A stretch of DNA of 64,000 nt, taken from contig NW_024882727.1 in the NCBI RefSeq assembly GCF_019059575.1, forward strand, positions 124,001-188,000. The letters run 5' to 3'. The translations under genes were made by a program, and so were the position numbers. Source of the DNA: Amphibalanus amphitrite (taxonomy: Eukaryota; Arthropoda; Thecostraca; Balanomorpha; Balanidae). Positions 3,225-63,315 of the stretch are shown here, piece by piece. How positions within the stretch are numbered: position 1 is the stretch's first letter; each line of letters begins with the position of its first letter. The notes beneath the pieces were generated by a model. It was not told the DNA's origin and ran no database searches. It saw only the letters and a program-made list of their open reading frames with translations.

Positions 3225-3690
3225 TTGACCCGTTGCGCTCCCCGCTTAAACTTGTGGTCTCTGTATTCCGCTATAACTTATAACGCATTGTGTTCCTCGT
3301 GCTTCTTCATGTCACCCTGTGTTCCTTGCTCTTTTCCCCAATGCATTGGCAAGAGTCACAGTGCTCTCACTGTACTCTCTGCTATAACCTACTGTGCTCC
3401 CTATATTATGCAATAACCTCTGTATTCTCTGTGCTTCATCAGGACTTGTGTTTACCCTCCACTGACAGTGTGTTCCCTGTGCTCTGTTCTAACCCGCTGT
3501 GTTCCCTGTGCTCGGCTCTAACCCGCTGTGTTCCCTGTGCTCTTCGCCAGGTATCGGTAAGAACCCCGACAGCAGTCGAGTGCTCCTCGCTGTACTCCTT
3601 GTAACACACTGTTCTCTGGTGCTCTGTTCTAACCCGTTGTGTTCCCTGTACTCTGTTTTAACTCGGTGTGTTCCCTGTGCTCTCCGCCAG
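3225..3690 (+). repeat. pyrimidine-rich minisatellite leading into exon 1
   Basis: Tandem units of about 31 bases built on GTGTTCCCTGTGCTC and TAACCCGCTGT, becoming more regular towards the exon 1 acceptor. A copy of the exon 1 start is embedded at 3551. Confidence 0.8.
3551..3590 (+). repeat. decayed copy of mask exon 1 start
   Basis: Repeats the acceptor TTCGCCAG and GTATCGGTAAGAACCCCGAC, 140 bases before the real exon, then diverges. The frame runs to a stop soon after. Confidence 0.85.
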
Positions 3691-3838
3691 GTATCGGTAA
3701 GAGCCCCGACAGCAGTCGCGTGCTCGCTGACCCGGAAGTGCTCCGCAAGCTCACGAGCTCAGTGAGCTCGGCGCTGGACGAGGCCGCCGCAGCTCTCACG
3801 CGCATGCGCAGCGATAGCACCGGCGACTCCCACAACCA
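3691..3838 (+). CDS. mask: mask exon 1 of window, N-terminal conserved segment
   Basis: Acceptor TCCGCCAG, donor GTGAGT. Encodes IGKSPDSSRVLADPEVLRKL then SSALDEAAAALTRM, the conserved segment just before the ankyrin repeats in ANKHD1. The first codon is split (one base comes from an upstream exon), so this is not the first coding exon. A decayed copy of the exon start lies 140 bases upstream at 3551. Confidence 0.93.
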
Positions 3839-6800
3839 GTGAGTCACGGGCTCGAATCTCGACGTGGCAGCATTTTTTTTTAGGATGGGATGGGTTATGT
3901 AGTTGAAGTTGGTTATTTTGTGCCTGTTGCTTTCAAAGGTTGCATAGAAGGTTAGGTTTTCATACGTCGTGGTCGTGTCAAATGCTTCATGAAATTCGAA
4001 CCGTTCTGTTTCCTTGAAATCCTTTTCCAGCTGCAAGACCGACTTATCATTTGTCTCGTATGATAGCAACTTAATCCTTTGTACCGTTTGGGCTTCCAGT
4101 TTGCGATAGATCCAACTAGTGAAACGACAGGAAAGGAACGGGCTTGGCGCGACCGGAAACAGGCATTAAAGCCGGATGTCCATAGCTAATTCACGGAAAT
4201 ATCGACCTTAGTGTCGGGCCTGCAATCACAGCTGGTGGATATCTTGTTTGGTCAGCCGCGATTGAAAATATTGTTTTTACCTCGTCATTCAATTTCTTGC
4301 GGTGCTGCTCCCTGTTACTTTAATTCATTCGATATTCGAAAGCTTCTACATCATTGGTTCTTTCTTTGGAAGTAATTAAAGTTAGCTCGTGAGACTCCCA
4401 GCTTATAAGCAAACTTTTCTAGTTAACAGTTGGGGTAATCTTTTGGTGAGGTGAGCTTATGTGGGCCTTGGCTGGAACGATACTCTGCTGGAGGTCTGGG
4501 CTACGTGGCTCGACACATAACACAGGCTGGGTATGATGTAGGCAGTATTTCTTTTGATTTCTGAAGTATGCGCTGGTATTTTTTTATTATTTTTTTTAGA
4601 GGGTGGCATTCGACCTCTGATTTTACTTTATTTTGTCTTCCCGGACGATTTCATGAAGTACAGCTCTAAGCTAGAGTTAAATCTTGAAACACGATGCATA
4701 CTTGTTGACTCATTAACAAGACGAATACCCTCATGTCGCGAATATTGGATCATCTCCATTGGAAATGCCACCCAACAAGTCGTGATTTATCATCTTAGTG
4801 ATGTATTCCTGAGACCCACGGCTTGAATTATATTCGAGTTGGGAGCTGTTGAATAGGATCCATTCCGTATTTGGCCGAGAGCCAAGTTGTCTGCTCCTTT
4901 ACCCGAGAGACATCCGATAGTCTGTCGCTAGATTCGTGGGTCGTGTCCAAAGGACAGGGTCATTCGGTTTGGGATGGAGTAAATGTACACATGTTTTCTG
5001 ATGATAAGGATGAATGACTAACGACACCAAGGTGTTACTTGGAAAACATTTTGAACAATAAGCAGCTAACTTTTAGGTGGAACGAAAGACAGAACGTCCT
5101 AAGGCCATAAGACAGACGGAATGAAAGTGAGAGAAACAGTAACAGAAACTGACGAACGAAATACTAGATAAGACAGACAGGCGAACGGAATCGAACCGGA
5201 CCGAACGTGCGCCGTCATACAGACAGACATACTAGAGAGAGACAGCCACTAGACAGACGGAAAGACAGACAGACAGGCAGACATACAGACAGCTAGACAT
5301 ATAGGCAAACTGACGAACATACCAGGGAATGAACAAAACGCTAGACCAGACATAAGACAGACCAGACAGAGACACAAACCGAACCAAACCGGACACCGGT
5401 GCCGCCGCGCTAGTGGCGACCTTGAGTTGGCCGTGGGTGCGGTCAGTGCCACCGCCACCGCTGTGACGTCATATAGCGTGACGTCACAGTGTGTGACTGA
5501 CGCGGCGTGACGGGCGGTGGTGGTGTGGGTCCCGTGATGCTACCAGATACTCGTGATTGGTGGTGTGGTACGGCTGAGCTTTGTTGATGTTTTGGAATGC
5601 GTGATGGTATTACCCTTGTGGGCTTTGAAAATTGAAGTGGATTTCCTAGCATTTGGAGACAAATAAAACTAAATTAGTTTTGGGGTTGATACATTTGCGA
5701 ATGTCATCACACCGAATCACCATGGTTCATATCCACTCAGTTGCTGTATAGCACCGCCCCGTCCGTCGGTCGTCCATTCCATTCAGCCACTACCTCTGTT
5801 ACGTGGGTCGTTTCCATGTGTATGTGTTGTATCAGTATCGAGTAGCCCCCCACCCTCCCTTGGACCCACCGCGGCACCGCCCGCCCGTCTGCTTCAATAC
5901 GTCAATACGGACACTGAATTACCGAAACGGGCGGTGACCCTACCCGAGTCGATTGGCGTTTTCGGTGGAATCGTGGGACCCTGCCATGTGTGAGTTTCAC
6001 CTCTAAAGCTGAGAAAATGATATCAGAACTTTTTTCTTTTCTTTGAGAAATGCTGGGCTTCCCAAGCTTGTTAACAAGGTGCTCTGTGATACCTATATAA
6101 GTTTCTGCTGGCGATGCAGAGCTTTTTCTCCCTGGTCGCGTAGTCAGATGATTGGGTGACCAGATAACCAGATATCGTTCGAACTTATTCCAAAATGTCA
6201 GCTTAGTTAGCAGTGGTGTGGGCAGAGTTGACGAACGACGCTGGAAGGGCGATAGAGGCTGAGGAATGGGAACTCGGCGGGTTTGTGAATATTGGGACAG
6301 AATGCGGCGAGTTGGTGTCATGGTGTATGTGTGTGTGGGGTGGGGGGGGGGAGTGGGGTGGGGGTGGGGGGGGGGGTCTATGCCCGGCAGTGTTCGATTG
6401 CGATGCAGCGTCTGCTTCCCCGCGTTGACCCGTGTTGACCGGCGCCGTCCGCCGCCCCCGTCCCCTCCAACATCGACCGATGCATCTGCGACGGTGGTGA
6501 CTGCCGACTGAACGACGTCGAGTTGTGGCTGTCGAATCAGCCAGCTTGTTCCTAAGGGGAGCTTTGTGACATAAAATGCTACATTTTGGAGAGTTGGCTT
6601 CCCGTAGACGTCGATCATTTTCGATAAGTTATGAGCAGAAAAAGCTCATTACAGTTGTTGGTGAGTGATCATGAATGTATCTAATTTCCCCATTTATGTT
6701 AATTATTTGAATTGGACAAATTAATTCGTTTATGATGTAAGATAAAAACACCAAAAGCACCCAACGTTTCGTGTTATTCACTTTTCAAGGATGAAGGATC

Positions 6801-9800
6801 TTACATCATATACGAATATTCCCCGTTCATATTTAGCGTAATAATCCACAATAACGTTTGTTTTCAAAAGCCCATTCACACGAACTCGCGCTGATAACCT
6901 TGAATTTGGCCACTATCGATTTGTGAACAGTCGTTCGTCGGACGTTGGACTCGCGTTGGTAGGTTACGTTAGCCCGTGAACCCGGGGAGAGGGGGGGGGG
7001 GGGGTATTGGTGACCGAGGGGACCTGGGGGGGGGGGAGTCCATGAGTGACGCCTGTGTGACGTAAATCGAATGGGTGTCGCCGTGAGGGAAGGGGAGGGG
7101 GGGGGGGCACCCCGGGGAGGGGAGAGGGCTGTGTTCGAGCGTCAATAGTGTTGCCTGGGGTGCCTATCGATTTTATTTGGGCAAACCAGCTGTCGCTACT
7201 CGTTAAAACGCTGTGGGGACGCATATGGCTGGTGTTGTGTGGGCGTTATTGGGGTTCTTGTGAAGAGTCAATTGTCCTTTTTAAAGGGGTGGGTGGGTTA
7301 GGGTGCGCTTGAGTCACGACCCGCGGTCTCGTCTACAGATATTCCAAAGAAGTTTTGATGAGCTTGGTGCTTTGCAGAGTCGACTTCCCTTCTTTGGGAC
7401 TTATGAGTAAGCTGGGGGTGCGTTTGGGTAGTGGTCCCAGAATCAGACATTCTGCTTGAGTTGAGGTATTTTGATCGGCATTTTACCAAATGTGAGGCAA
7501 GCTTGGTCAGGACGAACGTCGAACGGGAAGCGAAAGGAGATGGTTTGTGATGTTTTTTCCACAATTCCCAGGCCATATGTCGGAACTTTGTTCAAGAATA
7601 AAGCCGTCAGGATTGGTTCGGGCATGGTAGGAGGAGGGGAGCTGGGATGTTGTTTCCATAGGTCACCGGATGCGAGGCGGGGTCACAGGCATCACCGAAA
7701 GGTCACTGAAAGGTCACGAGGTCATTGACCACAGAGCTCAGCTCGGTGGTTCGGTCATGCAATATTGGGAGCTGGAGTTGGTAGCCAGGGGTTCACTGTG
7801 TGGCATTTCGGACATGGATGAGCTAAAACGAATAGAGTGGCGGTCAGAGTTTGGATGTGGCTTTACAAAAGTGAAAGTCATGCGGTGATGCGTGGGGGCT
7901 ACGTGTTCGGCCTATGCTATTTAATTCTACAATTTTATTTATAAAAGACAGAGTCCAATGACCTAAAGAAGGGAGCTGTTTTTCTCGCACACAACGTTTC
8001 TTGTTACCTTAGCAGACGACGCGCCCTAACGCCCCAATAAACAAATAAAAGTATCTTTTTAGCGGCAGAACTCTCGGCTAAGCGCTGCGGATTTGTATTT
8101 GTAAGTTGTTAAAAACTAGAATCGTGACTCAGCAACATACGTGGCCTTGGTTTGTCTAGCTAGAATCTGTGATGGCATTTCTCGCGAACTTGTAAAGGGT
8201 GGAAATCTTCTTGATAGATCGCTTAAAAGAACATAAGAAAAGGTTGGCTGGTTTGGCAAGTTCTTCAGTGTAGTTCTTAGAACGTTGAGTTAAATTTAGA
8301 GTTGATCTAATGTTTAATTTTGTGGTCGGTATGCATTTAAATAATTTCCAAATTATATGGGACGCTCACCAAGTCATAAGGAGACGCCCTAAAAGATGTC
8401 TGCCGATCATGTGACTTTCTACCGTGACGACGAACGGAGATGGTAGTGATATCACGTGATTGGCGATCGGAAAAACAGCGAGATGCTGGCATGATTGGGT
8501 CAGGAGAGAAGGCAAGCCTTCTGGGGGTAGTAGGAGAAAAGACAGAGCTTGAACAAGACCAGAGACAAAATGCAAACGATGTGGAGCCAGACTCGAGGGG
8601 CAAGTTACAACTGAAGGCAAAACCAGACTCGAGGAAAAACCAGATAGGCAAAAGCAAGCCCGAGGCAAAACCTAAGCAGTAAACAAAAAACGAGCGCACA
8701 TCTGAGGCGACCAAACACCTGTGGTCAGTCCCTAGCCCTCACCGCACCTTACTCATCAAAGCCATTACCAAAGCCAAAGTCGTTAGAACCAAAGCCATGT
8801 ATCTCCCTCCCCACTCACGCAAAGCCACGAACGGAAGATAGCGATGGGCGTGGAAGGGAGAGAGTGAGGGAGGCGGCGAGGAGAGAGTAGGGGAGTGTTT
8901 TTGCGTCGCGGCTTGATAAGACGCGCACGCAGTGGGTCACGCGAATGGTCGGTGGTGAGGGGGGGGGGGGGACGGGCGCATGAGTCCATGACTAGTGACA
9001 TGCCCTATACCTGCACCTTATGTGGAGTAGGGCTGGGTGAAGGATACCTTGGGGCAGGTCGTGCTGTGATCTTTGGATGAAGCGTGAATGTCAGCTTAAT
9101 CATGCAGGCTCAAGGTAACGTTGCGGTTCGCCTGACCTTTTACATAACTTGTGCTGATTTGTACCGCAGTCTGTGATCGCTGAGTTATTAGTGATCCTAT
9201 AATTGAATTTGGTTCTCACCAATTATCCCTGGATTCTCATACTTTATCTGAATGCATTTTTTTGCAATTATCTTTTCCGCAAAACTCTATACTTTAAAAT
9301 AATACAAATAAGTTGTCACTGATCGAGAAACTGCAATCAAATGCTTAGCCCATTGAAAACCTAATCAAGGATGAACATTTAGTCCCGTTCCATTTCTTTA
9401 TTTCAATGTTTACCAGCTTCGTGTTTTAGGCGTAGCTCATTGGATCACCGTTCCCCCCCCCCCCCAAATGCGTGTTGTCCTTGAAGTGGCCGTTACACTC
9501 TAAGCCATGTCACGGACCCGGCATAGACAGGTTTGGGGGTGGACAGAACGCGCTGGGGGGGGGGGGGGGGTGAGGAATGCGACATGTTTTGTCGTCTGAC
9601 GTATAGGTTCTGACGACGGCGGGTGGCGATGTTGGGTCATTTTTTTGTGGTGGTTGTCCGTTTTTGCTGATGTAAGGCTTCTTTGTGTTGTAGCAAGGTT
9701 CGCAGTTGAAAATTATCTCATTTAACCCTCGGTTTCATTTACTTTGAAATACTTAATGCCATCTCATCATGTTATATAACATATTTCACCATTTTTTCCT

Positions 9801-12800
9801 GTTATTGCCGACGTGAATTTTGACTTAATATTGACTAATTTTAGACTCTTGCAGCTGGTCACTGAGATACATCCACTCTCTCCCTATGCACTTCTCTTAC
9901 CACGCACGACTCCTGGAACTCGCCGTCACTCTCTCTTCCCTCCCCCCACTCTACACAGCCTGTTCCCCTGTCTATTTATAATGCGTCCACGACGTCTGCG
10001 ACCTTGAAAGTGGAGGCGCCCGCCCGCCGCCACGGCCGTTGCTAGGCGACGGGGTCGCCGTTTTTTTACGGCGTGTTTCGTGGAGACTTTGACCGGGAGG
10101 ATTCTAGTTGGGTCAGAGTTCCTGTAGGCTGACCGGTGACCCCTCATGTGATACTTGGCTAATTACGTAACCCTTTGATGATGATGTCCGTCCCTTTGTC
10201 CCTTTAACCCTCTATGATGACCTGCTACCTCGTTGACCTTGACGGTTGACCTAAGGTCCAAGTAACCTCTGAAAAACTGTGTCCTTCAGGTCATCTCTTC
10301 TGAACCTCACGTACCTTTCTAGCATTGCTTCGTGCTCCTAGAACTCTTATTGCGCCATTCTAGGTCTGAACCCTCTGAGTCCCTCAGACCATCTCAAGCA
10401 ATACTCTGATTCCTCACTCGCCCCCTCAGCTGACCCGTGACCCCTGACTTCTGACTGTGACCCCTGACCTTCCGTCCTCTCTTCTGATTCCTAACCCCCT
10501 CTTAACCCCACGTGCATTGGCCCCTGACGCCCTGTGTCCCTCAGAATTTCTCCCTTGATCTTTGACCCTTCACATGACCCATGACCCTCCAACACTGACC
10601 TCTGACCCCCTCCCTCCACAGACCGTCTCTTGTCGACGCGTGTCAGCACGGTAACGTCCCTGCCGTCCGTCGACTGCTGGACGAGGGCTCCTCCGTCAAC
10701 GAAACCACCGACAAGGGAGAGTCGCTCCTCTCGCTCGCCTGCCACTCGGGCTACTACGAACTCGCTCAGGTGAGATAAGAGTGAAGGTGGGAGGGTACTG
10801 TGTAAAAATATATGTGTTGAGGTGAGCTCGAGGAGAAGGAACGCGAGCATGTGACATGGGAAAGAGACATGATGACAAAGAGACATGTGACATGGTGACA
10901 TGGAGACATATGACATGGTGACAAAGAGACATGTGACATGGTGACAAAGAGACATATGACACGGTGACAAAGAGACATGTGACATGGTGACAAAGAGACA
11001 TGGTGACAAAGAGACATGTGACATGGTGACAAAAAGACATGTGACATGGTGAGAGAGAGACATGTGACGTGGTGACAAAGAGACATGTGACATGGTGACA
11101 AAAAGACATGTGACATGGTGACAAAAAGACATGTGACATGGTGACATGCCAGTAATGGTCAGTGGAGGAAGAGTTTAGCTAGCATAGTCTAGAAAAGAGT
11201 CAAGTTGGGGTTAGGCATTGGAAAAGGTAAAGGAATAAGTGGACGAAGGAATAAGGGGTTGCCAGCGAAGTCCAGTAGCCTTACCGGAGGGAAAATGTAA
11301 ACGCTGGGACTTCATGTCAGTGGTTATCAAGGAAGCTAGTCTGACAAAGATGGCATTGAAATCAGCTCGCGTCCCCTCTGACCGTACAATATTAAGTACA
11401 TGTACTGACTCTCCCCCTTTCTGTCAGGTACTGCTCGCCATGCGCGCCAACGTGGAGGACCGCGGTATGAAGGGCGACTGTACGCCGCTGATGGAGGCGG
11501 CCACGGCCGGCCACGTGGATGTCGTGCGGCTGCTCATCAAACACAAGGCCGACGTCAACGCCCAGAGCAGCTCAGGTGGGTCGGGGAAAGGCTGGGGTAT
11601 TGTTGTGGAACTGATCAAACACAAGGCCGACGTCAACGCCCAGAGCAGCTCAGGTAGGCTGGGGAAAGGCTGGGGAAATGTTGGGGAACTGATCAAACAC
11701 AAGGCCGACGTCAACGCCCAGAGCAGCTCAGGTGACTCATTGGGGAAAGGCTGGGGAAATGTTGGGGTGAAGTTGGGAAAAAGTTGGTGTGTGTGTGGAG
11801 CGGAGACTGATCGAACACCAAGTCCATGTCAACGCCCAGAGCAGCTCAGGTGTGTTTTTTTTTTAAGTAATGTGGTAAGGATACTGTAAAATAACTTTCA
11901 AAGCTTAACCTGCAAATACGGGGAAAGGTGAACGCAGGGAAAGTAGTTGGTGTAAATCAACATTGATTGAGCGTGTATCACATTTATAGGTATTTCATAT
12001 ACACACAGTAAACATCAAGACAGGGCTCGTAGGCTCAGGAACTAACTGTAGTAGTGTCATGGCCGTGTCATGTCATGGCCAAATGTAGTCATGGCCGTGG
12101 ATCGATTAAACGTAAAACATAGTCAAAGTATATTCTGAACACCAAGACCAGTTCAAAGCCAAGTTACACATACACACATACGTCCACAAATAGATCCCGC
12201 ACATAGATCAATAAACGCATGAATGTTAATGCCTGAGGCAATCGACTTTATCCGTCCATGATCTTTCTTTCGCCATCAGCGCACACGTGACCAGCGTCTC
12301 ATGTAGTACGCGGGTTGCCATGACAACGCGCGGATGACGCTTGTGCGTTGTTGCGCTCCCACTCCGGAGAATCAATGAGCAAAAGTACTTTCTGTCCAAT
12401 AATGGAGTTATCTTCGCCGCCATGAGAGATACAACTTGGTTGTCATGGCAATGATCGCCAAAGCGAACCCTGGACGAAGATAGTTCCGAAGGAGTAATGT
12501 GTCAATGTGTTAGCACGAAATACGTTATGCATTGGCTGACATGGGCTGTGTTTAAGAAAGGATGAAAATCAGTCGAGCTTGATTGCTGTTAGTTGTTCGT
12601 TTACGCTTGGATCTGTCATTCATGTATTAAAACTGAGTGCCAGTAGTGTGGGCTTACCTCTTTTGGTCCATCTATCAGTCATGTGCCTGTCTCGCAGATT
12701 TGAGTTCGTAACTGCCCCATTTGCGCGCTATCTTCCCTTTCTCCCTGGCGACACTTGCCATCACCCCTCCACCCCCGGCGCCGATGACCACTGTAGTCCG

Positions 12801-15800
12801 GGCGCCCAAAAACACCAATTCATCATCATCATCATTCCCTCCACCCCAACGTTTAACCCCATCCCTCCCTCTCCCGCGCAGGCAGCTGAACCCCCTGATG
12901 TACGCCTGTCCGCTCCCTCCAACTAACCCCCCTCCCCCTCTCCCCGCGCGCAGGCAACACCCCCCTGATGTACGCCTGCTCGGGCGGCCACGTGGAGGTG
13001 GTTCGCGCGCTTCTCGAGGCGGGCGCCAACATCGAGGACGCCAATGAGAACGGCCACACGCCCCTCATGGAGGCCGCCTCGGCCGGACACGTGGACGTGG
13101 CGCAGGTACGTGGCGGGTGGGAAACACGTGGTGGCGCGGGAGGGGATACGTGTGACACGTGGTGGGAATACATGGCGTGGCGAGACACGTGTGACACGTG
13201 GTGGGAACACGTGGCGTGATGAGACACGTGTGACATGCATAGCGTGACAGGAACACGTGGCAGGGACTGGGCATGTGTAGCACGTGGTGAGAGAGAAGAC
13301 GTGGCAGGGCGGCACGTGAAACATACGTAGGGAGATTATGATGACTGACAGGGTCGGGGTCACCGGACACGTGTGCCACGTGGTAAGAACACACGTGGTA
13401 GGGCGACACGTGAAACATGCGTAGCGAAATTATGATGTGACGTTCTGTGATGTTATGCGTTTACACATGTATGTCTAACACCTAACATGTGGGTTGTCAT
13501 AACTTAAATCGTTTGAGGCACATGATCAATTTGATGCGTTTTGATTTGCGTCAGTGTTTCACGTGGTTGATGCGTGATGCTTGTGTAAGGTGTATTGTGT
13601 AACTAGGTATATTATACACGCATATTAAACACGTGGCACACACGTGGCCTCTGGCATGTCTCAAAACAGTAACACGTGTGCTATGTTGGGTTGGGCCACG
13701 TGTGAAATAACACGTGACGGGCTCGTGAGAACCCCACAGCTGGTAGCTATAGAATGCCATGTAAAGAGTTCGACATTTGCTATCACTAATGTCATCATAC
13801 GTTTTATACCGTTTACTACTGCGAACTTGGAATGGTTTTGACGTTTCGTCGCTGCCTAGCAATGGCAGCTATGCTGTTTATGTCTGCCTTCTCACAATAC
13901 TGGTGGGGTGAACGACACGAAATGGTCCAGCGATGCCTCAGATGCTAATGCTGCTAAAATGCTAATAGTAATGCCAGGCTTGCGCATGCACATAATAAGT
14001 GCGTATTACAAACGGGTTTTTGGTCGATACTCATTGTCCAAATCCGCTTATAAAGCGAAGTCATTTGCTTATGTATTTATGACAATTGTCAAACATTATG
14101 ACAAATTTATGCTGGTATCAGTAATGTGACGTAAATATATTCAACACGTTAAGGATTCTGCATAGCCATAACATACCGAAGATGTTTAACATGCTACTAC
14201 GATGGTGTTTAATTGTATAACACTACACGCATATTTCGTTGTGTATGACGATACACAATGCCTATGACTGTTCTTCGTTCACCTGGCTGTTCTTTATATC
14301 TCTGTGTGTAACAATACACGATCTCTATGACTGTGCTGTCCACACCCATGCTTTCTGCGACGATGCCCTCCATGAGAACGTTGTCTATGGCGGTGCTGCT
14401 CCTGACGTTGCCGTTTCGTGTGTTACAGATCCTGCTGGAGCACGGCGCCGGCATCAACACCCACTCCAACGAGTTCAAGGTACCGAGAAAAACGGGAACT
14501 GGAATCCAAATACAAAGCTAGCACCACAATTGACGAAGGAAGCGATGCCAACGATGAGAGCATACCGAGTGTGATGGTGAAAGGGGATATATGGGCGATT
14601 AATTGGATGTCACACTCAAAGGTAGAGAGCCTTAGTTTTGCGGGAAAGGAAGAAGAGGCAGCTTTTTGAGTCCATCTTGTTGCAAACCTGGCCTTAATGC
14701 CACTGCTCTAACCGCCACCCCTCCCCTTTCACCAGATGTCAGCTTTGCACTCTCTTGCTAAAAAAAAACTCGACCGTGGCTCGATTCCCATCCTGATTTC
14801 GCCCTGACCCGCTGCCTCAAACATAAACCACTGTTCTAACAACCACGCCTCCCCCTTCCCCAGGAGTCAGCGCTGACGCTGGCCTGCTACAAGGGCCACC
14901 TGGCCGATAGTTTAAATCTCATTTTATCCTTCCCGCCCCCTGCTCCTGTCTCACCACCGCCTCAGTCATGTGCCATATATAGTTGTCACTTGTCAATCAT
15001 TACCGACTGCTTTGACCGACACCATTCTCTCCCCCTCCCCCAGGAGTCAGCGTTGACGCTGGCCTGCTACAAGGGCCACCTGGCGATGACTATGCTCCCA
15101 TTCTGTCCTTCCCGCCCCTGCCCTGGTTTTAGCTGCCTCAGTCATCACAAATGGCAACCTTCAAATTCTCTGCTCTGACTGTTTTGACAACATTCTCTCC
15201 CCCTTCTCCAGGAGTCGGCGCTGACGCTGGCCTGCTACAAGGGCCACCTGGCCATGGTGCGGTTCCTGCTGGGAGCCGGCGCCGACCAGGAACATAAGAC
15301 CGAGGAGATGCACACGGCTCTGATGGAAGCCAGCATGGATGGTCATGTGGAGGTGGCCAGGCTGCTGCTCGACTCCGGCGCGCAGGTGAGGAGAGGGAGG
15401 GGGAGGGGGAGGGAGAGGAGAGGGAGGGGGAGGGGGAGGGGAGGGGGAGGGGAGGGGAGGGGAGGGGAGGGGAGGGAGAGCGAGATAGAGGGGGAGAGGG
15501 AGAGAAACGGATGGAAGAAGAAAACTCATATACTGCTAGTTTGAAGGTGTTATTGGGAAATAATATGTGAAATTAGTGAGGCGAGGCCAGATTGAAAGAG
15601 GGATGAGGGCGCTGTATGATATGGGAAGAAGAGGATAGAGGATAAAACCTGATCTTCCCTGACCTGAGCTGTCGCCTCAGACCTAACCTCTGCACTCTTC
15701 CCTCTTTCTGCTGAAGTCAACATGTCGGCGGACAGTTTCGAGTCACCTCTGCCGCTGAGCTGACCTCTGACGCTGACCTGACCCGACCTCTCCTCCCCTC

Positions 15801-39800: not shown

Positions 39801-42800
39801 TTTTGTCTATAACTCTTAATATCTTTCTCTCAGCTTTATATTTTTCCTGTAACATCTCTTTGTAACTCACTTCGCATTCGCTCGCGCCCTTCTTTGCGCG
39901 TCTGCCCTCCCTGTTTCGTTTCGCCGCATCTATCTTCCTTTCTAACGACGCTATCCCCCGTGGCCCCCCGCAGGCAGCAGCAAGAGGTCACCATGAACGA
40001 CACAGACCGGACACCCCCGACTGTAGCCATTTCACCTCAGCCGGCGCCGGCCGCCGAGCCGGCCTCGGTGGCCCCCTCGGCCTCGGCCAAGAGCCGCAGG
40101 AAGGACAAGCAGAAGCGTCTTCAGGAGGAGAGGGAGAGGATGACGGCGGCCGGATCGGTCAGCTCGGCGGCGGCGGCGGCAGCGGCGCCGGCCGCCGCCC
40201 GCGCGGCCAAAAAGGATAGGACGTGAGTGGGGTGATGGGGGGGGGGGTTGTTTTTGGGATATGTTTGAATAGGTCAGGTTGCGGGGAGGGATTAGAGATC
40301 CGTTGAAGCCGGAGTTTCTTTGCTTTGAGAGGGAAATGTAAAGCCATTGCCTTTTTAGTCTTTTTCCCACTTTTGAAAAATACTTTGTTAGCCTCTCCCA
40401 CTTTTGAGTCTTTTTTTTATCTCATGTCTAGAGTTACTTATATTTCTCATAATCATTTTCTCAACGAGATTTCCTCCGTACTTGATATTCTTTCTTATCT
40501 CATTCTTCTTCCATATTTTCATGTTTTCTAAGCCCTAACAATTAACTTTCGTTTTGCTTTTCAATCCCGCATTCGTTGTAGTATCTTGATATCAAATGCA
40601 GGTGAATTATTTTTCTACAAATCTTACTATCACTTCTATCATATATTTTACCTTGTGTTTCTACCTTCCCGACTATTTATATCAGTCTCCTCGACGGCTC
40701 GACGTACTGTGACTCAAACCCTGCTCTAACCCCGACATCTACCTCCTACCCCATCCTTACCCAAACCCTGGCCCGGCTAGCCCCGACACCTACCCTATAC
40801 CCCTTTCCTACCCAAACCTTGCCTACGTCCACACTATTCTACCCCCACCCCTACCCTTTACCCCTTACCCCTGCCCAAACCCTCACCCCCGCCCGTCTCC
40901 GCCGGCAGTGAGACCTCGGACACGGCGGTGGAGGAGCGTCGTCTGATCCCGGGCCTGCCCGCTCGCGGTGTGGTGCTCCCCGTCGGTCTCCGCTCGCCCG
41001 GCTACCCGGCCACAGTGGCGGCCGCCGCCAGTCCCAAGAAGAAGGGCAGGGAGGAGGGCTGGCGAGAGGTCACCACCAGGAGGTACGGAGAGAATGGGGA
41101 AAGAAGGGAAAGGAAAGGAGAAAGGGAAAGTATGGAAAGGAGTAAACGTTACGGGAGGTAAAGGAACTTAGTAAATATTGGGTATTGTCAATGATCGACA
41201 AACGAACGCTTAATGTCAATAGGTTTTCTCATGAATTGCTAATAATTTGTTCGTCAGTAACCTGTTATAGAGCCGATTTCTTTCGTAGTACTTTGTAGGA
41301 TAAAATCTGGTGACTGTTTGCTGAATGTTTGCCATTATGGTGCGTTGGTAATGTATTTCACATAGTTTTGCTCGCTTTGCACTCTTAGTTGCTTCAGAAA
41401 CTCTCTGTGGTCGTATGTCAGTGTCTCCATCTTCTGTGAGACGATGAACCCATTTATATTGTTCTTCCCTCCCTCCCAATTATCTATCGCGCCATATCTG
41501 CTTCCACACACAATTTCCAACTCTCCCGCACTACATTTGACACTCCCCGCGCCATTTCTAACCCTCCCGCGCCACGTTTCTCGCCCCCACAGCGCCTCCT
41601 CATCATCTCGTACCAAGCGTGTCACGGTCCCGACGTGCGCCATCTCGCGTGTCATTGGCCGAGGAGGGTCCAACGTGAACGCCATCAGGGACCTGAGCGG
41701 CGCTCATGTGGAGATCGAGAAGAAGAGCAAGGGACAGGCGGACCGCGTGATCACCATCAAGTGAGTGGCCGGGGAGGGGGGGAGGGGGAGGGTACGAGCG
41801 CTAGAGTAAGGGGTGGATTGGAGTAGAAGGAAGAAACGAAGCAAAGGAAGGATGGATGGGAGGAAATGAGTGAAAGGGGGAGGGGATGTGGGTTAGAGAT
41901 GATGATTGGCTGAGGGAAAAACGTAATGAGATAGGGAGGAGGAAAGAATGAATGGTGAAAGGAAGGCGACGAGAGGGCAGGGACAAATTTGATCACAGCA
42001 TATTCGCTGGTTTTGGTTAACCAGATGTGATGATAGCACTGACATTTAGACAGATTTCACTGACATTGAGACATATTTTGTTATGATAATTGTTTCCTTC
42101 CGCTTTTTGTCTTTTCGTTGTCGTGTATCTTTTAGGAGTCAATGTCCATGAACCAGAGGACAACAGAGTACCTGTCTTGATGCATGCTCACTAAGTTGTA
42201 GCGCATTCTCACTGAATCTTTTTACCATTTCGACTAACCTCCCTCCCCCGCCTCCCTTACAGGGGCTCTGCCGAGGCGGTCAAGACGGCCCACGCTATGA
42301 TAACGGAGCTGGCCGACAGTCCGGACGCCGACGTAGCGCAGCTACTGGGACGTCACCGACCCCACCAGGCCGGGCAGAGTGGCGGAGCGGCCGGGCAGAG
42401 CGGAGGAGCCGGAGCGGGAGACGCCAAGACGGGCAGGCAGCAGACGGCGGCGGCCAAGGCGGCTGCCGCCCAGGCGCTGACGGGTGAGTGAGGGAGGAGC
42501 TGGGAGTGTTTTACTAACAAGCTAAGGGTTTTAAGAAATTTTAGCTATGTTTGAGCCAGCAAGCAACATATTTTAAGCACCATGCTGAGCTGCAACATTT
42601 TCCCGTAAATGCTGATGACCACACTGCCTTGTTTTGGAAAGAATGGTACACAAATTAGTTGTACTTTACAGCTCCATTGCTTTTTGCGAATGCCTACATA
42701 ACTTCGGATGCGTTCTCAATTTCAAAGCCAAAACCGGCACACTTGCAGGTTTGCATGTAACCTTCCCTTAGCTAACGTTAGTTGCGTCTAAGTGAACGTC

Positions 42801-45800
42801 ATCAATTCACGGCTTCGCAACATCGTTAACATTTGGACTCGTTGCTAGACCCAACTATGTTTATAACTCCTCTCCCCCTTTCAAAATAACACCATCGTCT
42901 ACACTGGCGTCATGAAACTCATGACTAACTCCACCCCCCACCCCCCCTCCTCCCCTCCCAGACACCACCATCGTCCACTGACTGGCGTCACCAAACTCTA
43001 ACTAACCCCCCTCCCCCCATTTCAGACACGACGTTCGTTCACACGGGTGTCACCATGTCTCCTCGCCGTGCTACTGACTCGGCCCCGGCCAAACCGGCCG
43101 TCCAGCGCCAGCTGAACCTGGGAGGGGAGCGACCGGGAGCCGGGGGCCACCGGACGGCCGCCGCGGCCGCTGCCGGGGCGCAGACGGATGCTGCTAATGG
43201 TGGGTTGAGAAAGGGAGTGGAGTGGGCTTGGTGGGACGGTTTAGTGGGTTTGATGTCACCAAAATAATACTAGGGGGGGGGGGGGTGTTAGTAGGAGATA
43301 TTTTGGGTGGTGAAAGGCTAAGGGTTTGATGGAACACTTGGATTGGCATTTGCTGCCGTGGTGGATTTATTGGGACAGTCTTGAAGGCTACGTAAAATCT
43401 GACGCATAAATCGTATTTTACGTACGTAAAATATCATGGTGTGTTTGTTGGGATATCCAGCGATGGGACTTCGGTCTACATTACTGAATGAGGTCGCTCG
43501 CTCTTTGCGTCACAGCGATGGTGAGTGCTTCTCACTGAATCGTCTCTGCGTTTGTATTTCTTGCACAAGGTGAAAGCCAGTTATGGTTTATCATGTATTG
43601 AACAAAAACAGAATCAAAAGCCGGGATGTGCCCTGCAGTGATAATAAAAAGAACGAGATAGTCAGGTCGGAGCCCTCAGCTGACGCACACATACTTTTTA
43701 TCTAACCCAACACTCCCTCCTCTTCCAGACAAGCGCGGTGCCGCCGCCAAGACGGCCTCGGCCGCCGCCGCCGGCGCGCGCGGCCCGGCCGGCGCCACGG
43801 CGCCGCGCGCTGCCACACCACTCATGCAGCGTAAGGTGGAGCCGCCCAGCAGCGCCGCGGCGGCCGCGGCCGGCCGTCGCGCGCCCGCGCCCGCCGCCGC
43901 CGCCGCGGAGGCTGCCGTCTCGGCGGCTGCGGCGGCGGCGGTGTCGGCGGCGGCGGCGGCGTCCGCGGCGTCTCAGCCGCCGGCGGCCCCGGCGCAGCCG
44001 ACACAGACCTACTCGCCGTTCAACTATAGTCCCATTCTGAAGGTAAGAGAAGTGTAGAATGCGGGTGGGGTGAGGGTCAGGGGTTGGTTTGGGGTGTAGG
44101 TAAGTTGTTTGCTGAGCGGGAGGTGAGTAAATTTGGGTGTTGGCTGTGATTTCTGGCTTCCGGTGCACTCATTGGAAACTTTCGTTGAAGTGCCGGATTC
44201 TGTCGGGTCAAGTAATTTCAATATTTTGTTCTCTGATGACAGAATGATTTCTAATGGCGGGATATTCTTAACATTGTCTGGCGGCCTGGCCTGAGGTGGG
44301 AGTATTTTCATCCGCACAATGTATTTTTAAATAGTTGCTTCCTCAATGAATCACTGCGAGAAATCTGCATCTCTGATCTAACGCTATGGCCTCCCTCCAT
44401 GATGTGCCAATGACTTCTCTCTTTAACGTTACTCTTCATCTTTATCTCTTCTTCTAACCCCTCCCCTCCCCTCCCTCCCACAGAATGTCGCCCAGAGCAA
44501 GGAGAAAAACTTTGCGGCCGTGGTCGCCAGCGGTATCACCTCTCTCGCGCCCACCACCACCTCCGCCACCGCCACCTTCGTCGATTCCTCGCCGGCCGTC
44601 GGAGTTGTCGACGCCGCCAAGGCTCCCGGCTACCGCGGGGCAGCGGTGATGACTAGCTCCGCGCCTGTCAGCTCGGCCAGTAGCCAGGCGGGCGCGGTGG
44701 CCGCTGCGGCGGCGGTGTCGGTGTCCGCCCCGCCTCCGGCTGCCGCTAGTCCGGTCAGCCCGGCGACGGGAGGGTCGCCTCAGCAGCAGCTCTCGCCGCC
44801 TGGTGAGAGGGGAGGGGTGTGAGGAGGGGGCGGGGCTGGGGTTTGAGGTGGGAGGGTGGCATCTGGTTGGGTTGGTGTGGGAAGTTCAGTTTCGCCTAGA
44901 TTTATGGAACGTACAGGTCCCGCGGGTTTTAAGCGTAGGTTTTGCCTTTCCGGCTATATCTTTTTCGTCTTCCGCTTTGTAGGCTTGAAGATGTGACCGA
45001 TTTATTCGTATGGCTCCCTCCCATGAGCATGGAAAAAGGTTCGATCGTATGCCGGCTAGTTTCGGAGAAATTAAAAGAAAACCTCAAAATCCGCCGTTTG
45101 GAGCATTCTGACCGCGGCTTCCCTGCAGTCGCCTATGACTACAGTGGTGCCACCCAACGGGTAGGACGCTGAAACACAGAGGCATGAATGAATCCAGCGC
45201 GTGGTGAACGTTGGATAGAGGCGGGACTCGGCAGCAGTGTTCTGAAATTGATTTTTCGGAGAGTGTGATTGAAGCCGCGAGGACGTCGCTATTTCAAAAG
45301 GACGTCGATATCGGTGCGGAGCCTAAGCCACTGAAGCCCTTACCTAAATCTCTTAAAATTAGCGATTTTCACTGGCAATATTGACTAATACCACCTCAAG
45401 GCACCTCAAATGATCATATATAGACACAAAGTAATGCCAGTTTACCCCTAGTAAAATACAAAATTCAAGCATTCACCACAAACACCAAAACAACACTTTG
45501 AAGATGTCTAGTTCTTGTCCATGATCGTACATAACAGTCAACAACAAATATGCTTCAACAAAAATCAGCCCAAGAGCCAGCGGCTATCACTAAATATTGA
45601 CGTCATAAGAGGGATATCATATCGAGCAAGAGGACTGATTTAAAAAACAGACGTCCAAACAAAGAGGTGGAAAACAGCTCGGAAAATTAATTTCCATAGC
45701 TTCCTGTTATGAAATTCAATTGAGAAAACTCCAAGGTGGACGCTGAATTTTTCTTGGCTGGAAAAAAATGTGAAATCATTGTGCACTTTTCAGTTTTGTA

Positions 45801-48670
45801 CCGACGTCGATTAAATGGGAATAACAAGGTCAATCGACGTCCCCAACATTGCGTGTATTTTTAAGCCAAGGACGACATACTTGAATTAATACTGTTGAAA
45901 TTCGGTGGCTTTATTTTAATTCAAACAGATAAACATTAAACTTTTTCCCCAACCACTATCAACATATGCAAAATTAACCACTTTTGAAGGGCATGTTCAA
46001 GGGGCAGCGCTAACCCGTTACTGTGACCTTCTGAGGGGAAAAAATAATTAAATATGTTTCAGTAATTTGATACAAAAGGTATGTTGCGTGCTTATAGATA
46101 AATGTCCAAGTAATATATTCGCATGATTAATTTTTATCTATACACTGCACAGTTACTAAAACTGAAAAGTGGAAAACGACGTCCTCAGATCCCTCTATTC
46201 CGACATCTTTTCTCCTTCATATGGCAGCATAACCTTCACATGGTAAAGGAAAAAACTTATCCATATCTGACGCACAGAAAACAAAAATAAAATAAAACCG
46301 CGTTGTTTACTGTTGCGGCAGTTGGCCAGGAAAGGGGAGTTGAGTGTAAGAGTGAGTTTTTGAGGGCTTAGGATATTATATTTATTGTCATTTTGCATAG
46401 CCGTGTTTTTAGGCTACAGAGGTGATATTTCTTTTTGTTAGTTTGCTTTTGGTGTTCGATATACCTATCGACTTTTATCTGTCAGGGACGTCGTTTGGCT
46501 TTCCGGGACGTCACAAAGAGAATCTGTTAGGTGTGGGTTTCCACCCAAATTCACGAAAATCAGGACACTGCTCGGCAGAGGCTATCACTGCGGCCCGCGC
46601 AGGGCGTCCTTGGACAGCGGGCGAGCCTTCGGGCGGTGAGGCCAGAGGTCACGACAGCCAGGCGCTGTTTGGCATGAAGGGAGGGGAGGCGCTCGCCTTA
46701 GCCAGCCTCGCCTCAGCCAACTCAGCCGGTTTGGTGGTAGTGGTGGTGGTGTGTGTGTGGGCGGGGGGGGGGCAGGCGAGAGGGGCTAGAACGAACGGGA
46801 TAAAATAGAATGGAAAGTTCGTGCCAATGTCAACTTACAATATTGTTTACCTAATATGCATTTATTAACCTTACGAAAGAACTCACCATATTGAATTGAG
46901 AAACATACAGATGTTATTTATCGATGTTACCGTTTACTTTTAATGGAAACCCTACTTTTTATTAGGGGTGATAAAATGAACCCCTCTCCTTGGTTTTTCC
47001 TGAATAACTCGTGTAAATAGTGGCGGATAGCAGCGAAGCTTTCTGTGCCGTAAGTTATTTTTCTCCCCATAAGTAAATAAACGCCCATGCGGTCAGGAGT
47101 CAGGATAAGTTTGGACTTCAGGCCATCTGCAATTGAAAGCTCACACCTACCCTGAAAATTTCATGAACCTGACCAAAATGACCTCTGATCTCTGACCAGT
47201 TTCTAGAGCCCATTATAGGCCAGAATTCGGCGTGTCATGTCTCATTAACCGTTCGTTTCTAGACTTAACCCGCGCACCGACGGGGGGGGGCGGATATCCG
47301 CCCCCCCCCTGAGGTTTTTCGCGAATAGCGGGAAAACCGCGGCGCGTAGCGACGCGAAATTTGGTATGACTATTCCCTTATCAATTTTACACATGGTGTG
47401 CAAGTTTGAACCTCCTACCTTTCAAGGTCAGGTCACCAGGTCACTTTGAATGACCCAACCTCAAGTCACTTTTTTGCAACTTTGTCACCGTGCCAGAGCT
47501 ACAGTAGATGTCGGAGGCCTTTGAAAGTCGCAGGATGTTATTAGGTCATTAGTAGCTACAATTTGTATATCTCGGAATTTTGATATCGGTGACCTAAGGT
47601 CAGGTCAATTTCGCGACCTCCCCATTATAAGTCAATGGGGGAAAAATCAACTCCCTGTTTTTACCACTAAAACGGGTCGGAATGGCCCCATATACCATGC
47701 ATGACTTCATATACGATCAACCTTCACTACCTTGAGGTCTGTTTTGCTGTTGGGCAGCTGTGAGGTCATGTGACGTCATCAAAGGTCACCAAAGGTTTTT
47801 GGCCAATAACTCCGTACAGGAACAAGATACAGACGCGTGGATGGTCTCATTGTGTTCAGCTCGTCAAGCCGCATCGAATGATATACATGATGACCTCGAG
47901 GTCACGTGACCTGAGGTCAACCTTTGACCTTGACCTTTCGAGGTCAACATATATATCATTCGATGCGGATTGACGAGAGGATCACGATGATGCCCTTAGT
48001 TTGTTCCTATCTTGACTAATTCGAAAGTTATTCGAGAAAAACTCTCTCCATATTTAGCGCCGCCATTTTGGCTTTTTCGGCCCCTGTGACGTCATCTTTG
48101 ACCTGACCTGAAAATGACCTTAGTAAAAATTGTAGATCTTGACCGTGCGTATCCGATGCCGTTTACCGCTTGTCGCTATCTTGCTTCGTTCTCGAGATCT
48201 CCGGGGGGGGGGGGCGGTCATCCGCCCCCCCCCCCGTCGGTACTAAGTTGGCGCAGACCCCCGTCGGTGCGCGGGTTAAGATTAGAAACGTTTCTACATG
48301 TGAGATTGTGTTTGGTCCCTTGTGTCTTATTTGGCCGGGACCAGCGGTGGAACTTGGCCGGTGCCTTCAGGGCTGCTTAACTACAAATTTGCCGATCTGC
48401 GGAGCGTATGGAGCCAATCTAGCCAGGTTTAAAAGCATCAAAACCACTAGGAATAGCATTGTAGCACAGCGAATCTTCAAGCTTTCCGCGTCCCTAGAAT
48501 ATCTGCTGTTTAGCTGCCGGTTTCCGGTCACATAGCCTAAAGGCGAGGTCACTAGCGATGGAAATGGAAACACGTGGGGCAGGCTAGCTGTGAGAAGGAT
48601 TAACTAACGTTCATTTTAAATCCGTGCATTGTCGCTTAATACCTATACCAACCGTTTTCTAAAAAGGCTA

Positions 48671-48760
<90 letters not shown>

Positions 48761-51343
48761 CTCGCTCTCGCTCTCGCTCTCTCTCGCTCTCTGCGTCTCT
48801 CTGTCTCTGTCTATGTCTCTGTGTCTGTCTCGTCGGGAGGCCAGCTCTGGTCATCCTATGGAGCACTTCGCACATAGGCGGCGTAACGGAAACGGCACTG
48901 GGGCACCGTGCCTCCCTTTGATTTTGGCATTTTAACATTAGCCCCATGGGCGTTGCATGGAAAGAATGGGACAAAAAGTCGGCAGTGCAGGGAGTGGATT
49001 TTTCCCCCATTGACTTATAATGGGGAGGTCGCGAAATTGACCTGACCTTAGGTCACCGACATAAAAATTCCGAGATATACAAATTGTAGCTACTAATGAC
49101 CTAATAACATCCTGCGACTTTCAAAGGCCTCCGACATCTACTGTAGCTCTGGCACGGTGACAAAGTTGCAAAAAAGTGACTTGAGGTTGGGTCATTCAAA
49201 GTGACCTGGTGACCTGACCTTAAAAGGTAGGAGGTTCAAACTTGCACACCATGTGTAAAATTGATGAGAGAATAGTCGTGCCAAATTTCGCGGCGCTACG
49301 CGGCGCGGTTTTCCCGCTATCCGCGAAAAACCTCAGGGGGGCGGATATCCGCCCCCCCCCGTCGGTGCGCGGGTTAACCCTCGCCCCGTTGGGGGTGGGC
49401 AATTTAGCGCAATATAGCGTGTATTTTCCTGAATAGCAAGAAAACGGCGGCGCGCAGCCCCGCCAAATTTTCAATAGCTTCCCGGGCACCAATTTGACAC
49501 CTTCACACAAAACTTCAAGTCTTAAGTTAACTTATGTCAGGAGTTATTGAGGTCAAACTGGGGTCATGTTCGAGCTAAAATGAGCAAAAACATTAAATCT
49601 TGAAACGCTCACATGACAAAAGCTACAGTTAACAAGCAATTTCGAAGCTCTATATCTGGTCGTGTAGAGAAAAAACGGCGCTACAAAACCGCTATCTGGG
49701 ATTTTAAAACTTTTGAGCTTTTGACCCCCAAATTGAAAAATTGGTCTGTTATAAAATTTAAAAAAAAATCGAGTTTAAAACACGGAATATATATGATAGT
49801 CTCTGCTCTCGGTGATCTACGTTACAAATTGTAGATCGATGCCTCCTTTTTTGGCGAAGTTACCTTTAGCGAAAAGCTGTTCAAAATTGATGACGTCAGT
49901 TTTTAACTCAATTTTTAACAATTCTAGACTACGTAGCTCAAAACAAAGACCAGCATTAGACTCCCCGTGACGAGCTGCATCGAAACGATACCCTTTTTAA
50001 GCAAAAATGTCAAATTAAAAATTTGACCTGATTTGACACCAGAACATAACCCAAACTGGCCCCCAAGGGCTGCCTGACCCACATAATCGCATTTGTCATG
50101 TAAAATGGACCAGACAACATGCATCACATAATAGTTATCTTCATATTGTGACTCTCAGTGACCTGGCATCTGTGAACTGACCTGGTATCAGTGACCCCAA
50201 ATAGCAAAATATGTGTTTGACGAAAAGTTCCCCATCGAAAATAATTGTTATTCATCGATTCCTTATCGATGAATGACACGCATTTTACTGGATTTTACAA
50301 CACATTTCTTGAAATGCCTGTAAACGGTGAAAATTCGACATTTGACCTGAACTGTGACGTCATCGGTTTGACCTAGGTCAATAAAATTGAACCAAAAGGT
50401 ATTTCCTCGTTGGGGCCATCCAACACCGTTTGCTGCTTGTCGTTATTTTGCGTGGTTCTCGAGATCTTGGGGGGGGGGGGCAAAATGCTCCCCCCCCCCA
50501 TGGGACCGATGCTCGGGAGACCATAACGGGGCGCGGGTTAAATGACAGAACTGTTCCCAAGAAATAACATTACAGTCGTCTCCCGGCTTCCGCTAAAACT
50601 TTGGACGACTACCTATGAATCGGCACGCTGCCGGCCGGCTCACCCCGCCCGCTGGCTACGGGTGGCCTTGACCGTTCAATGCCGATTGGCTAACGGCCGA
50701 GGTCGTGCGCTGGTCAGCAGGCAGAGAGGACGGGACGCGGTACTGCACATTGTGAGTGACCTCTGACCTTTCCCCGTCCCCTGACGGCATGCCGTGTCGC
50801 CGGCCCAGGCGATAGAAACCGGTTTTAGCCTCTACGCAGGCTGCCACTCTAACCCTTCCCTCCCCACTTTACTATGTGCCGTAGTACGCGCTCGCGAGTA
50901 ACTGGGCGGAGCAAATGGTCACCGATACAGAGGCGGAACTGGTTGCCCTCCCGCTCGCCGAGCGACCTACCGCTAAAACCCGCGAGACCTGTACCTAACC
51001 TATAGGGTTTAGTAATGGAAGGGCTTGTAGCTAGCAGCTGTCTCTAGTGCATCTGCGAGGTTCTGCGCTGGGAATGGAAGCAGTAAACCGGTGAAATTTT
51101 CAGGAGACCATTATCGGATTCTGTTGTTCTCAGTCTGTACTCGTCTGGTTGGTCAATTAGTAGGACTTGGTCGTATTTAACATTTTACATTTGACGTTGT
51201 TGAGTCGACTTGTTAAATTGCTTCATGGATGTTTTTTATTTGCATTTAGAATGCAATTGTTATATGAGGACACGAGTTATTAACACCCCTTGAATGTCTC
51301 CATCTCTCTTCGTCCGAAACAGCTGTCGTGTCTCCATCACTGA

Positions 51344-51404
<61 letters not shown>

Positions 51405-54400
51405 ACAGGCCGCAGCGCCCCTGGCACTCCAATCGTCTCCATGTCAGCCGGACCACCGCTGGCGCCCAGTCCTCCTCTGGCCGCTCCCAGTCGGCCGACC
51501 GTCTCCCCCGACTGGTCGCTGGCCCCGGGAGGGCCGCTGAACCGCCCCACGGCGCCGCCGCCGCCGCCGCAGCCGCCGCAGCCGCAGCCCGGAGTGGGCG
51601 TGCCGCCCGGCGCGCCGTATAGTATACCTGATCTGGGCATGCTGAGGGGACGGCTGCCGCCGGCGCCGATTGGACAGAGACTGCCCGATCCGGGCATGTT
51701 TGGAGCGCCAGGTGAGAGGCTTTGGGGGAGAGGGGGTGGGGGGAGGAACATAGCTGTTTGGGGTGCCGCGAAAGCGTTAATGTAATGCGTTTATGGGTAG
51801 TGAAAGATGAGATGAGGGGAACCGAATGGGAAGCCGGTTGGATTGTTATAATTGATGATCAGAGCCTGACAGTTGATCAACCGTCTGATTAGGGTCATTG
51901 GAAGCTCGATGGAAGTTCATGGGAAGGTCAATGGCTAGTTTATGGTCGCAAATTACCTCGCTGTCAACGCTCTTTTGTGCCCCAATTTACTAATAATGAG
52001 TTCAGGAGTGTTTCGATCAATCACATCGTAGATTCAGTCCGCTCATATGGGGTACCTGGCACGAGCGTATTCTTATCGTTACTTGAGGTCGAAATAACTT
52101 TGGCAGCGGCCGGCGTGGCCCTAAGACCCTTGCAAATAAGTGTGTCTACTCAAGATTCATTCCGTCCCTTCCGTCTGTTCACATTCTGACGTCTCCCGTC
52201 GTGTCACCAGGTCTGCCGATGGGTCTGCCGCCGGCCCGCCGGGACCACGGGATGCCTCCTCCGCTACCGAACATCATCGACCTGCTACACTCGCCGCCGC
52301 CGCCCATATCGCTGCACCACCCGCCGCCCAATATGTGAGTACGCCGCCGCCGCCGCCCAATATGTGAGTACGCCAGTCCCCGCCCCCGCCGCCCCCGCCA
52401 AACTTGGAGAGTTAGTTTAGTCCATAGGTTTACCACCCGCCGCCGAATATGTGAGTACTGCCGCCGGCCGCCCCCGCCGCTGCCGCCGCCCCGCCCCCGC
52501 CCCCGCCCCCGCCAATCGTGGAGGGTCCGTAAGACAATGCCCACTCGCCCCCGCCGCCGATATCGCTGCACCACCCGCCGCCGATATCGCTGCACCACCC
52601 GCCGCCGAATATGTGAGTACTGCGCCGCCCCCGCCCCCGCCCATATCGGAGGGTTCGTAAGACAATGCCCACTCGCCGCCGCCGATATCGCTGCAAATAT
52701 ATGGTATATGAGTTTGTAAATATGTGGGCTTGTAACTGACCCGACCGGCTTCACAGCAAACCAATATCGCTATGTATACCTGACCAGCCGCCGTCAAATT
52801 ATATGCGAGTCAGCCACTGTCCTCGTTTTAGCCCTCCCCGTCTCTAGTTTCCGCCGTCATGTTTTGACGTCCTTGCCCGAAAATGTTCTCATTTTTGCCC
52901 TCTCTTTTGGTGAAAGGTGATAACTATCGCCTTTTTGTCTTTATGCAGACTCTTCTCGATAGTTTCCGCGTTTTACTGACATTTCTCAATATTATCCGTG
53001 TTTTGCCGACATTTCTCGATATTTTCCACGCTTCTGCTGACATTTCTCGACATTTCCCTCCAGGATCAAGCACCCGCAGCTGCCGCGTCCGATTGGCATG
53101 GAGCGGAGCATCCGTGAGCGACAGTTCCAACAGCAGCAACAGCAACACCAGCAGCAGCAGCAACAGCAGCACTATGGGAACAAACTGCAGGGGTATGTGT
53201 AACCTGGGAGGCCCGGGGAATGTAGGGGAGGTTTGGTAGCGGAAGCAAGACTATTGGCTATACACTGAAAGGGTCTGTGTAACCTGACGTAAAGGAAGGG
53301 AGGTTTGGTAGCGGGGGCAGGTTCATTGGCTAGACACTGAAAGGGTCGGTGTAGTCTGACGCGCCTGAGGAAAGGGAAGAGGGTTACATATACCGCACAG
53401 AATAATATGTCGTCCTAGTTTGTCTATCAGTGTTATATTGGATTCTTTGGGCGTGTTGTGACTAGACAATTGTGTACATAATAGTCTTAAATAATTGATT
53501 GTAGTTTTTTTCTGGTGTCATGAAGTCATGTAATATGATTTAGTCCTAATTCTGCCGTATAAAGGCAAAACCGACTACGTTCGGTTGACCTCTGGCCTGA
53601 CATAATGACCTAGTTAAGAGCCGACTTAATCGTTTTTTTTTTGCCTTTGCACGGCAGAATTGTCAGTTATCTGTGTTTCGCTTTCTTGGACTGTCACTAA
53701 TTATATGCACCTTGATCTGTCCCTGTATTCTGTATCTCATTTCTGCCCCCCCCCCCCCAGCCGTCCGTGGGAGTACCAGCCGTCCCAGGAGGTAGATAAC
53801 GGGACCAGTAACTGGATGACGGCGCCGCCGCCGCCGCCACCGGCCGACGACATCATACCGACCTCCGCCTACAACATGGAGCACATGAACATGAGCTATG
53901 AGGACATGAACACGGTAAGAGAGCGGGGATATCACCCTGTGTTTACGTAGTGGTGAGTGTATTTATATGTTAACATCCCGCGGTGATGTCCCCCACTTCC
54001 CCGTTTTTTCCACGTCTGCCGTGCGGCGGCCTCGATAGCAATATGTCAACCATCTGTCTTTCTTTATTTCCCTACAACTCCATGCGCATTGCTAGAATTT
54101 CTATAACTTCGTTCTATCTGTATCTGTCCTCAAAAGGGTATTGTAGTGTGGTATCTGTATTCTGTATTCTAACATTTGTCTCTCCTTCCCACTGCTGCAC
54201 CGTTTCTTTAATTAGCTGTGTTGTACCTCTTCCCGCGTTGATTATTAATGTCTGTATTGCACTCTAACCTGTCTTTCTGTCTCCGTCAGCTGCGCCGCGC
54301 CGCCTCGATGACCTCGGAGCTGAGCGGCGGCGCCGGCCGCTATAACTGCTACGCCAACGGTGCCGGCCTACAGGGCCTGCCCACCTACGGAGGGCCGTAC

Positions 54401-63135: not shown

Positions 63136-63315
63136 GGTTGGTGGTCAGTTGAAGCTGACGGCTTGATACATCGCTGAAGAGATCATTGACGGCACAGTTT
63201 GGTTCGAGCGATGAAATATTTTTCTGGTAGCTTCAACAGAAATTCTTCAGTGGGTAGTCTCAGGATTTTCGTACGCCACCTCTGGAAGTTTCACCACTTT
63301 TCCAGGAGTGATTTT

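Follow-up and report, generated by a model that had tools for sequence, protein, structure and literature searches.

The mask/ANKHD1-like gene and its exon edges

We analyzed a stretch of 64,000 nucleotides from the barnacle Amphibalanus amphitrite, referred to here as the window, to which all unprefixed positions below refer. On the plus strand at 3691..54568 lies a gene model of 46 coding exons; the ends of the gene fall outside the model. After three one-base donor shifts and correction of one end, the exon chain reads as a single frame, without a stop, across all 46 GT-AG exons. Pfam searches with two pieces of the predicted protein returned ankyrin repeats (E 3.6e-106) and a KH_1 domain (E 6.9e-17), a pair that we take to be diagnostic of mask/ANKHD1, and the name mask given in the preliminary description fits this predicted domain content. 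Other features of the window include an open frame of 424 codons, counted from stop to stop, on the minus strand at 61870-63144, with tandem repeats at 62522-62850, and long TC-type microsatellites at 1385-1536 and 48674-48831. The long intron 5′ of exon 42 contains a stretch that appears repeat-like by eye (47250-50540), within which 48151-48234 matches 50418-50499.

The sequence of many exon edges recurs in the neighboring intron. An edge test, in which the first or last 60 exon bases were compared with up to 1.5 kb of adjacent intron and with 60 dinucleotide shuffles each, flagged an edge if its score lay above all shuffles with z>4. By this measure a significant intron copy was present at 15 of the 92 mask exon edges, affecting both 5′ and 3′ exon boundaries. 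The eight flagged acceptor edges are the starts of exons 1, 4, 6, 7, 8, 25, 30, and 31, and each was also recovered by dust-masked self-blastn of the window. The copy before exon 1 (3471..3725) places a decoy exon start at 3551, the real one being at 3691. Copies likewise precede exon 4 (12857..12978), exon 7 (15701..15848, where the AG of the decoy has been lost), exon 8 (16363..16629), exon 25 (several copies, 30929..31126), and exon 30 (34403..34665, with 15 exonic bases), while arrays are found at the starts of exon 6 (14830..15256, two decoys) and exon 31 (35131..37601, five decoys). The latter, which also appears in the tandem-repeat listing, is split by a repeat block at 35283-37279 that has internal direct repeats several hundred bases long.

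The seven flagged donor edges were again found by both the edge test and blastn. Six of them also appear in the tandem-repeat listing, namely the arrays at the ends of exon 3 (11533..11855, three decoys, unit 78 bp), exon 7 (15920..16191, three decoys), exon 8 (16645..17134, three decoys), exon 9 (17506..18121, seven decoys, unit 71 bp), and exon 17 (23413..23917, three decoys), and the copy at the end of exon 21 (27576..27713, unit 74 bp). The seventh is an array at the end of exon 43 (52290..52695). All these features, like the gene, are on the plus strand. The preliminary description had listed 17 edges; every one of the 15 significant edges is on that list, and the remaining two are weak. 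At the start of exon 39 (42864..43055, plus strand) the acceptor-edge copies are decayed, with decoy scores of 52.5 and 34.5 obtained without a null, a z of 2.9 with a score that failed to exceed every shuffle, and no counterpart among the blastn families. At the end of exon 44 (53165..53361, plus strand; unit 79 bp) the donor-edge copy was not significant in the edge test (z -0.3 on exon sequence alone) and reached 74 bits by blastn, with 28 exonic bases, once its intron part was included.

Self-blastn of the window yielded 16 edge families, each containing 15-64 bases from the exon. Of these, 15 cross the edge; the match at the start of exon 7 begins exactly at it. The sole short intron-only local pair in the window was 32461~32575, in a count that leaves out array sub-repeats, the block at 35283-37279, and the widely spaced pair 48151~50418. 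The earlier statement that exon interiors are not copied stands for blastn, which gave no families with both copies inside mask exons except exon 6 vs. exon 8; these share a 29-base stretch with 97% identity (15208-15236 and 16642-16670), as ankyrin repeats would predict. It does not extend to short-unit repeats, since Tandem Repeats Finder reported units of 20-30 bp inside exons 18, 19, 38, and 40. Identity of the exon part of the decoys ranges from 100% down to about 65%, a spread that fits the graded decay of copies described initially.

Placement of the duplications in mask and in other genes

As a null, we let a tandem duplication fall anywhere that keeps the exon intact. Local families in mask with units of 50 bp or more were at exon edges in 16 of 17 cases, compared to 3.4 expected, and the maximum in 200,000 simulations was 11. 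After addition of all Tandem Repeats Finder intron rows with units of at least 20 bp, 16 of 29 families were at edges, with 3.9 expected and a maximum of 14; two rows in this count overlap, and row 30866 is treated as touching an array.

The preliminary description regarded the pattern as belonging to one conserved gene, which proved too narrow, as chaperonin genes and kinesin fragments carry edge copies too. The window belongs to an assembly of 807,550,619 bases in 2644 contigs, from which we took chaperonin genes, identified with a Pfam model, and kinesin fragments. Their exons were modelled by a small gene finder for which mask served both as training and as test gene; in the mask stretch used, it recovered 40 of 40 exons, together with 13 extra small ones, several of which are decoys. 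With alleles counted apart, 7 of 190 chaperonin edges were flagged, three of them strongly (in L032 and in L046 and L047, which are alleles). The kinesin fragments had 5 of 58 edges flagged, four strongly, and no intron-only blastn repeats in 20 kb; one badly modelled locus, L064, supplies six of the 58 edges and none of those flagged. Density thus differs between mask (15/92) and the chaperonins (7/190), a difference for which our best explanation gives no account. In the kinesin fragment L060, the predicted exon at 868-1099 holds an in-frame repeat with a 45-base unit. This repeat may be an edge copy that the gene finder took for exon, and the real junction may sit one unit further in. In the chaperonin locus L044, an intron-only minisatellite array occupies 3465-4129; self-blastn of its allele L045 listed none.

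When mask was pooled with eight kinesin fragments and with ten chaperonin loci, which represent nine genes with a single allele taken of each, 23 of 26 blastn families were at edges compared to 5.2 expected, with a maximum of 17 in 500,000 simulations. The three non-edge families are the mask pair, the L044 array, and a pair in L048. This pooled count omits the block 35283-37279, the pair 48151~50418, array sub-repeats, second alleles, short-unit arrays, and L044 and L048 pairs more than 800 bp apart. The family shared by alleles L042 and L043 was entered from L043, where blastn found it, L042 having been flagged by the edge test only, and a duplication in L041 is outside the 23. Loci L010, L011, L026, and L049-L058 were left out of the counts. 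The two comparisons (16/17 vs. 3.4 and 23/26 vs. 5.2), obtained with little detection bias, bear out the earlier proposal that some process recurs at splice junctions or in their immediate vicinity. The opposing prospect, that short tandem duplications might be equally common away from exon edges, does not hold in the sampled genes, which are a small part of the genome.

For six chaperonin genes both alleles are present, about 96-99% identical in exons and 82-92% identical outside them; a second mask allele was not found among the scored candidates in the assembly. One acceptor array has four copies in L046 vs. three in its allele L047, and an acceptor-edge duplication is present in L041 and absent from its allele L040. 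We read these allelic differences at two loci as ongoing turnover of edge arrays. A screen of seven allelic locus pairs (six genes), intended as a test free of detection bias, found three tandem-type indels of 15-400 bp, all at most 150 bp from an edge and one spanning it, along with 27 other indels (6 near an edge, 21 far); the outcome is suggestive, but three is too small a sample, and the screen missed the L046/L047 copy difference.

Origin of the duplications and fate of the decoys

In many genes, short tandem duplications with a unit of about 40-180 bp would arise repeatedly across exon-intron junctions, later growing or shrinking as ordinary tandem arrays. They could persist because a duplication spanning a junction damages neither the exon nor the splice site that belongs to it, the extra copy landing in the intron. 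We consider it highly probable that the copies are junction-biased, nearly neutral duplications of the type called "mirage" in amphioxus. Less secure is the step that starts them. Mismatch between alleles is about 3% throughout exons, rises to 9% over intron bases 1-10 and to 15-18% at bases 11-30, and is 11-15%, with more gaps, deeper in the intron. Allelic homology thus drops abruptly at exon edges, and borders this sharp suggest a cause of edge duplication. In a genome of extreme heterozygosity, exons would form islands of allelic homology. Repair, or a switch of template, that set out from exon sequence and made use of the other allele would lose homology just past the edge, and rejoining with a short overlap would duplicate the border. 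As the origin of the duplications this step is tentative. More tentative still is its generalization, by which exon edges in very heterozygous animals would be mutational hot spots because they are borders of allelic homology, with decoys building up as diversity increases. For the reading as a whole, mirage-type arrays with a first step at homology borders, we estimate a probability of roughly 0.6.

The main rival places the target in a hot zone at the strand-asymmetric ends of introns rather than at the junction itself, as may be the case. Here, fork stalls or staggered nicks would be followed by fill-in and end joining, so that the unit would equal the overhang, and Pol alpha-primase fill-in at breaks with 3′ overhangs is indeed reported to yield small tandem duplications (PMC8355091). 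As for the asymmetry itself, in mask introns longer than 900 bp G makes up 44% and C 11% of bases 9-58, the proportions in the corresponding 50 bases next to the acceptor being 41% for C and 11% for G, and the bias fades over about 150 bases. All 12 intron-only short-unit rows lie at most 206 bp from an edge, 10 of them within 150. In zone models that include the twelve short-unit arrays and exclude the intron-only families of L044 and L048, a zone made up of 100 bases of intron and 64 of exon predicts 19.3 edge families of 36 and is not firmly rejected (P 0.08 or 0.03), but the same zone without short-unit arrays fits poorly (P 0.006 or 0.001), and zones of at least 150 intron bases predict fewer edge families than observed (P at most 0.0003). 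Array-bearing edges are also no richer in G or C than others (P 0.78 and 0.48), and on this ground G-rich and C-rich runs were discarded as the feature that decides which edges carry arrays. The position of the short-unit rows near edges, together with the result for the 100-base zone, shifts the odds slightly toward this rival, which we regard as possible yet unlikely. Of these two proposals, repair at homology borders is tentatively favored over an intron-end hot zone with break fill-in. A separate candidate, an origin from lariats or branch points, was rejected; some acceptor units start, by eye, near what is presumably a branch-point-like motif, but their intronic parts reach well past it.

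Three further explanations fare worse, in the order given. In a species with very high polymorphism, selection might retain spare splice sites that protect splicing from mutation. In favor of this, the scores of 32 of the 39 mask decoys still exceed the 95th percentile for GT/AG sites throughout the gene, and GT is retained in 25 of 26 donor decoys, slightly above the neutral expectation of 21.0 (P 0.02). At acceptors, however, AG retention is neutral (24/29 vs. 22.9 expected, P 0.41), and just 3 of 39 mask decoys could serve with the site undamaged, the frame kept, and no stop read. In all, many, but not all, of the 55 junction-covering decoys (49, with both alleles of one locus counted) keep AG or GT. 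Selective retention, weak at donors and absent at acceptors, was accordingly dropped as an account and is improbable, and the earlier suggestion that the copies supply alternative splice sites is doubtful on the same figures, even though most decoys still score well. Near-neutral decay and the scarcity of usable decoys point instead to a mutational process that is tolerated since extra copies fall inside introns. From their sequence, we read the decoys as probable by-products that are tolerated and bypassed by splicing.

Even less probable is ordinary, uniform tandem duplication whose edge cases merely stand out, one copy being held by selection on the exon while interior duplications are purged. 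Anchoring by the exon does prolong visibility, as the exon part of the 55 decoys is mismatched at 9.5% and the intron part at 13.5-17%. With implanted duplications (120 per cell, per-copy divergence of 0.02, 0.05, 0.08, 0.10, and 0.13), recall was 0.93, 0.96, 0.83, 0.68, and 0.54 in introns and 0.90, 0.89, 0.81, 0.83, and 0.68 at edges, so that introns lag at 10-13% divergence; up to 8%, however, recall was nearly equal, and the edge excess holds even with an eightfold undercount of intron-only families (P 8e-7). Least probable of all is an assembly artefact of a very heterozygous genome. The assembly does contain allelic contig pairs, and in amphioxus one such array was aberrantly assembled in a draft (PMC3087553), but the arrays here reach seven decoys with graded divergence and recur on separate allelic contigs (L042/L043 and L046/L047).

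If duplications truly are concentrated at exon edges, the structure of genes directs mutation, and each junction would seed decoy splice sites as well as material from which new exons or introns could be made. Gene prediction in such genomes can take decoys for exons.

Comparison with known systems

The preliminary description knew of no account of such a pattern, but the same anatomy is found in the mirage minisatellites of amphioxus, reported for Adh3 and for the globin genes BflGb6 and BflGb9 in a paper that cites three earlier amphioxus reports of the pattern (PMC3087553). Mirages are tandem repeats that span 5′ and 3′ exon boundaries, with units of 10-72 and 150-160 bp, AG or GT in many units, and six vs. 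three units in two haplotypes; RT-PCR suggests that they leave splicing undisturbed (PMC3087553). Somatic instability is reported for the Adh3 mirage. Boundary-spanning units, involvement of both 5′ and 3′ edges, AG/GT in many units, and a copy-number difference between haplotypes (here L046/L047) are common to mirages and to the copies described here.

Homology borders as a cause would link edge duplication to genetic diversity. Amphioxus has high genetic diversity. Among barnacles, high diversity is documented for Balanus improvisus (PMC8270832). If true, the homology border would account for the pattern common to amphioxus and the present genome.

Two other systems share part of this behavior. 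In the potato RdRp gene, a tandem duplication crossing an intron-exon boundary, with 3′ splice signals, is presented as a single case that produced a new intron (PMC4974935); tandem duplication also figures in PMC3443670. While tandem duplication is common to the potato case and to our copies, no new intron is evident in mask, where the frame reads single exons and the copies, often in multi-copy arrays, lie in existing introns. Fill-in by Pol alpha-primase/CST resembles the present copies in giving short head-to-tail duplications from one event; that work concerns induced breaks, and its abstract makes no mention of a preference for splice junctions (PMC8355091). Among the four papers matched by a search of the barnacle literature, none dealt, by its title, with tandem copies at exon edges.

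The present genome goes beyond the mirages in that many edges of one gene are affected, in the excess measured relative to intron-only duplications, and in the homology border measured at the edges. What is new here is accordingly the quantified junction bias, which we did not find in the literature examined, and the recognition of exon edges as sharp borders of allelic homology.
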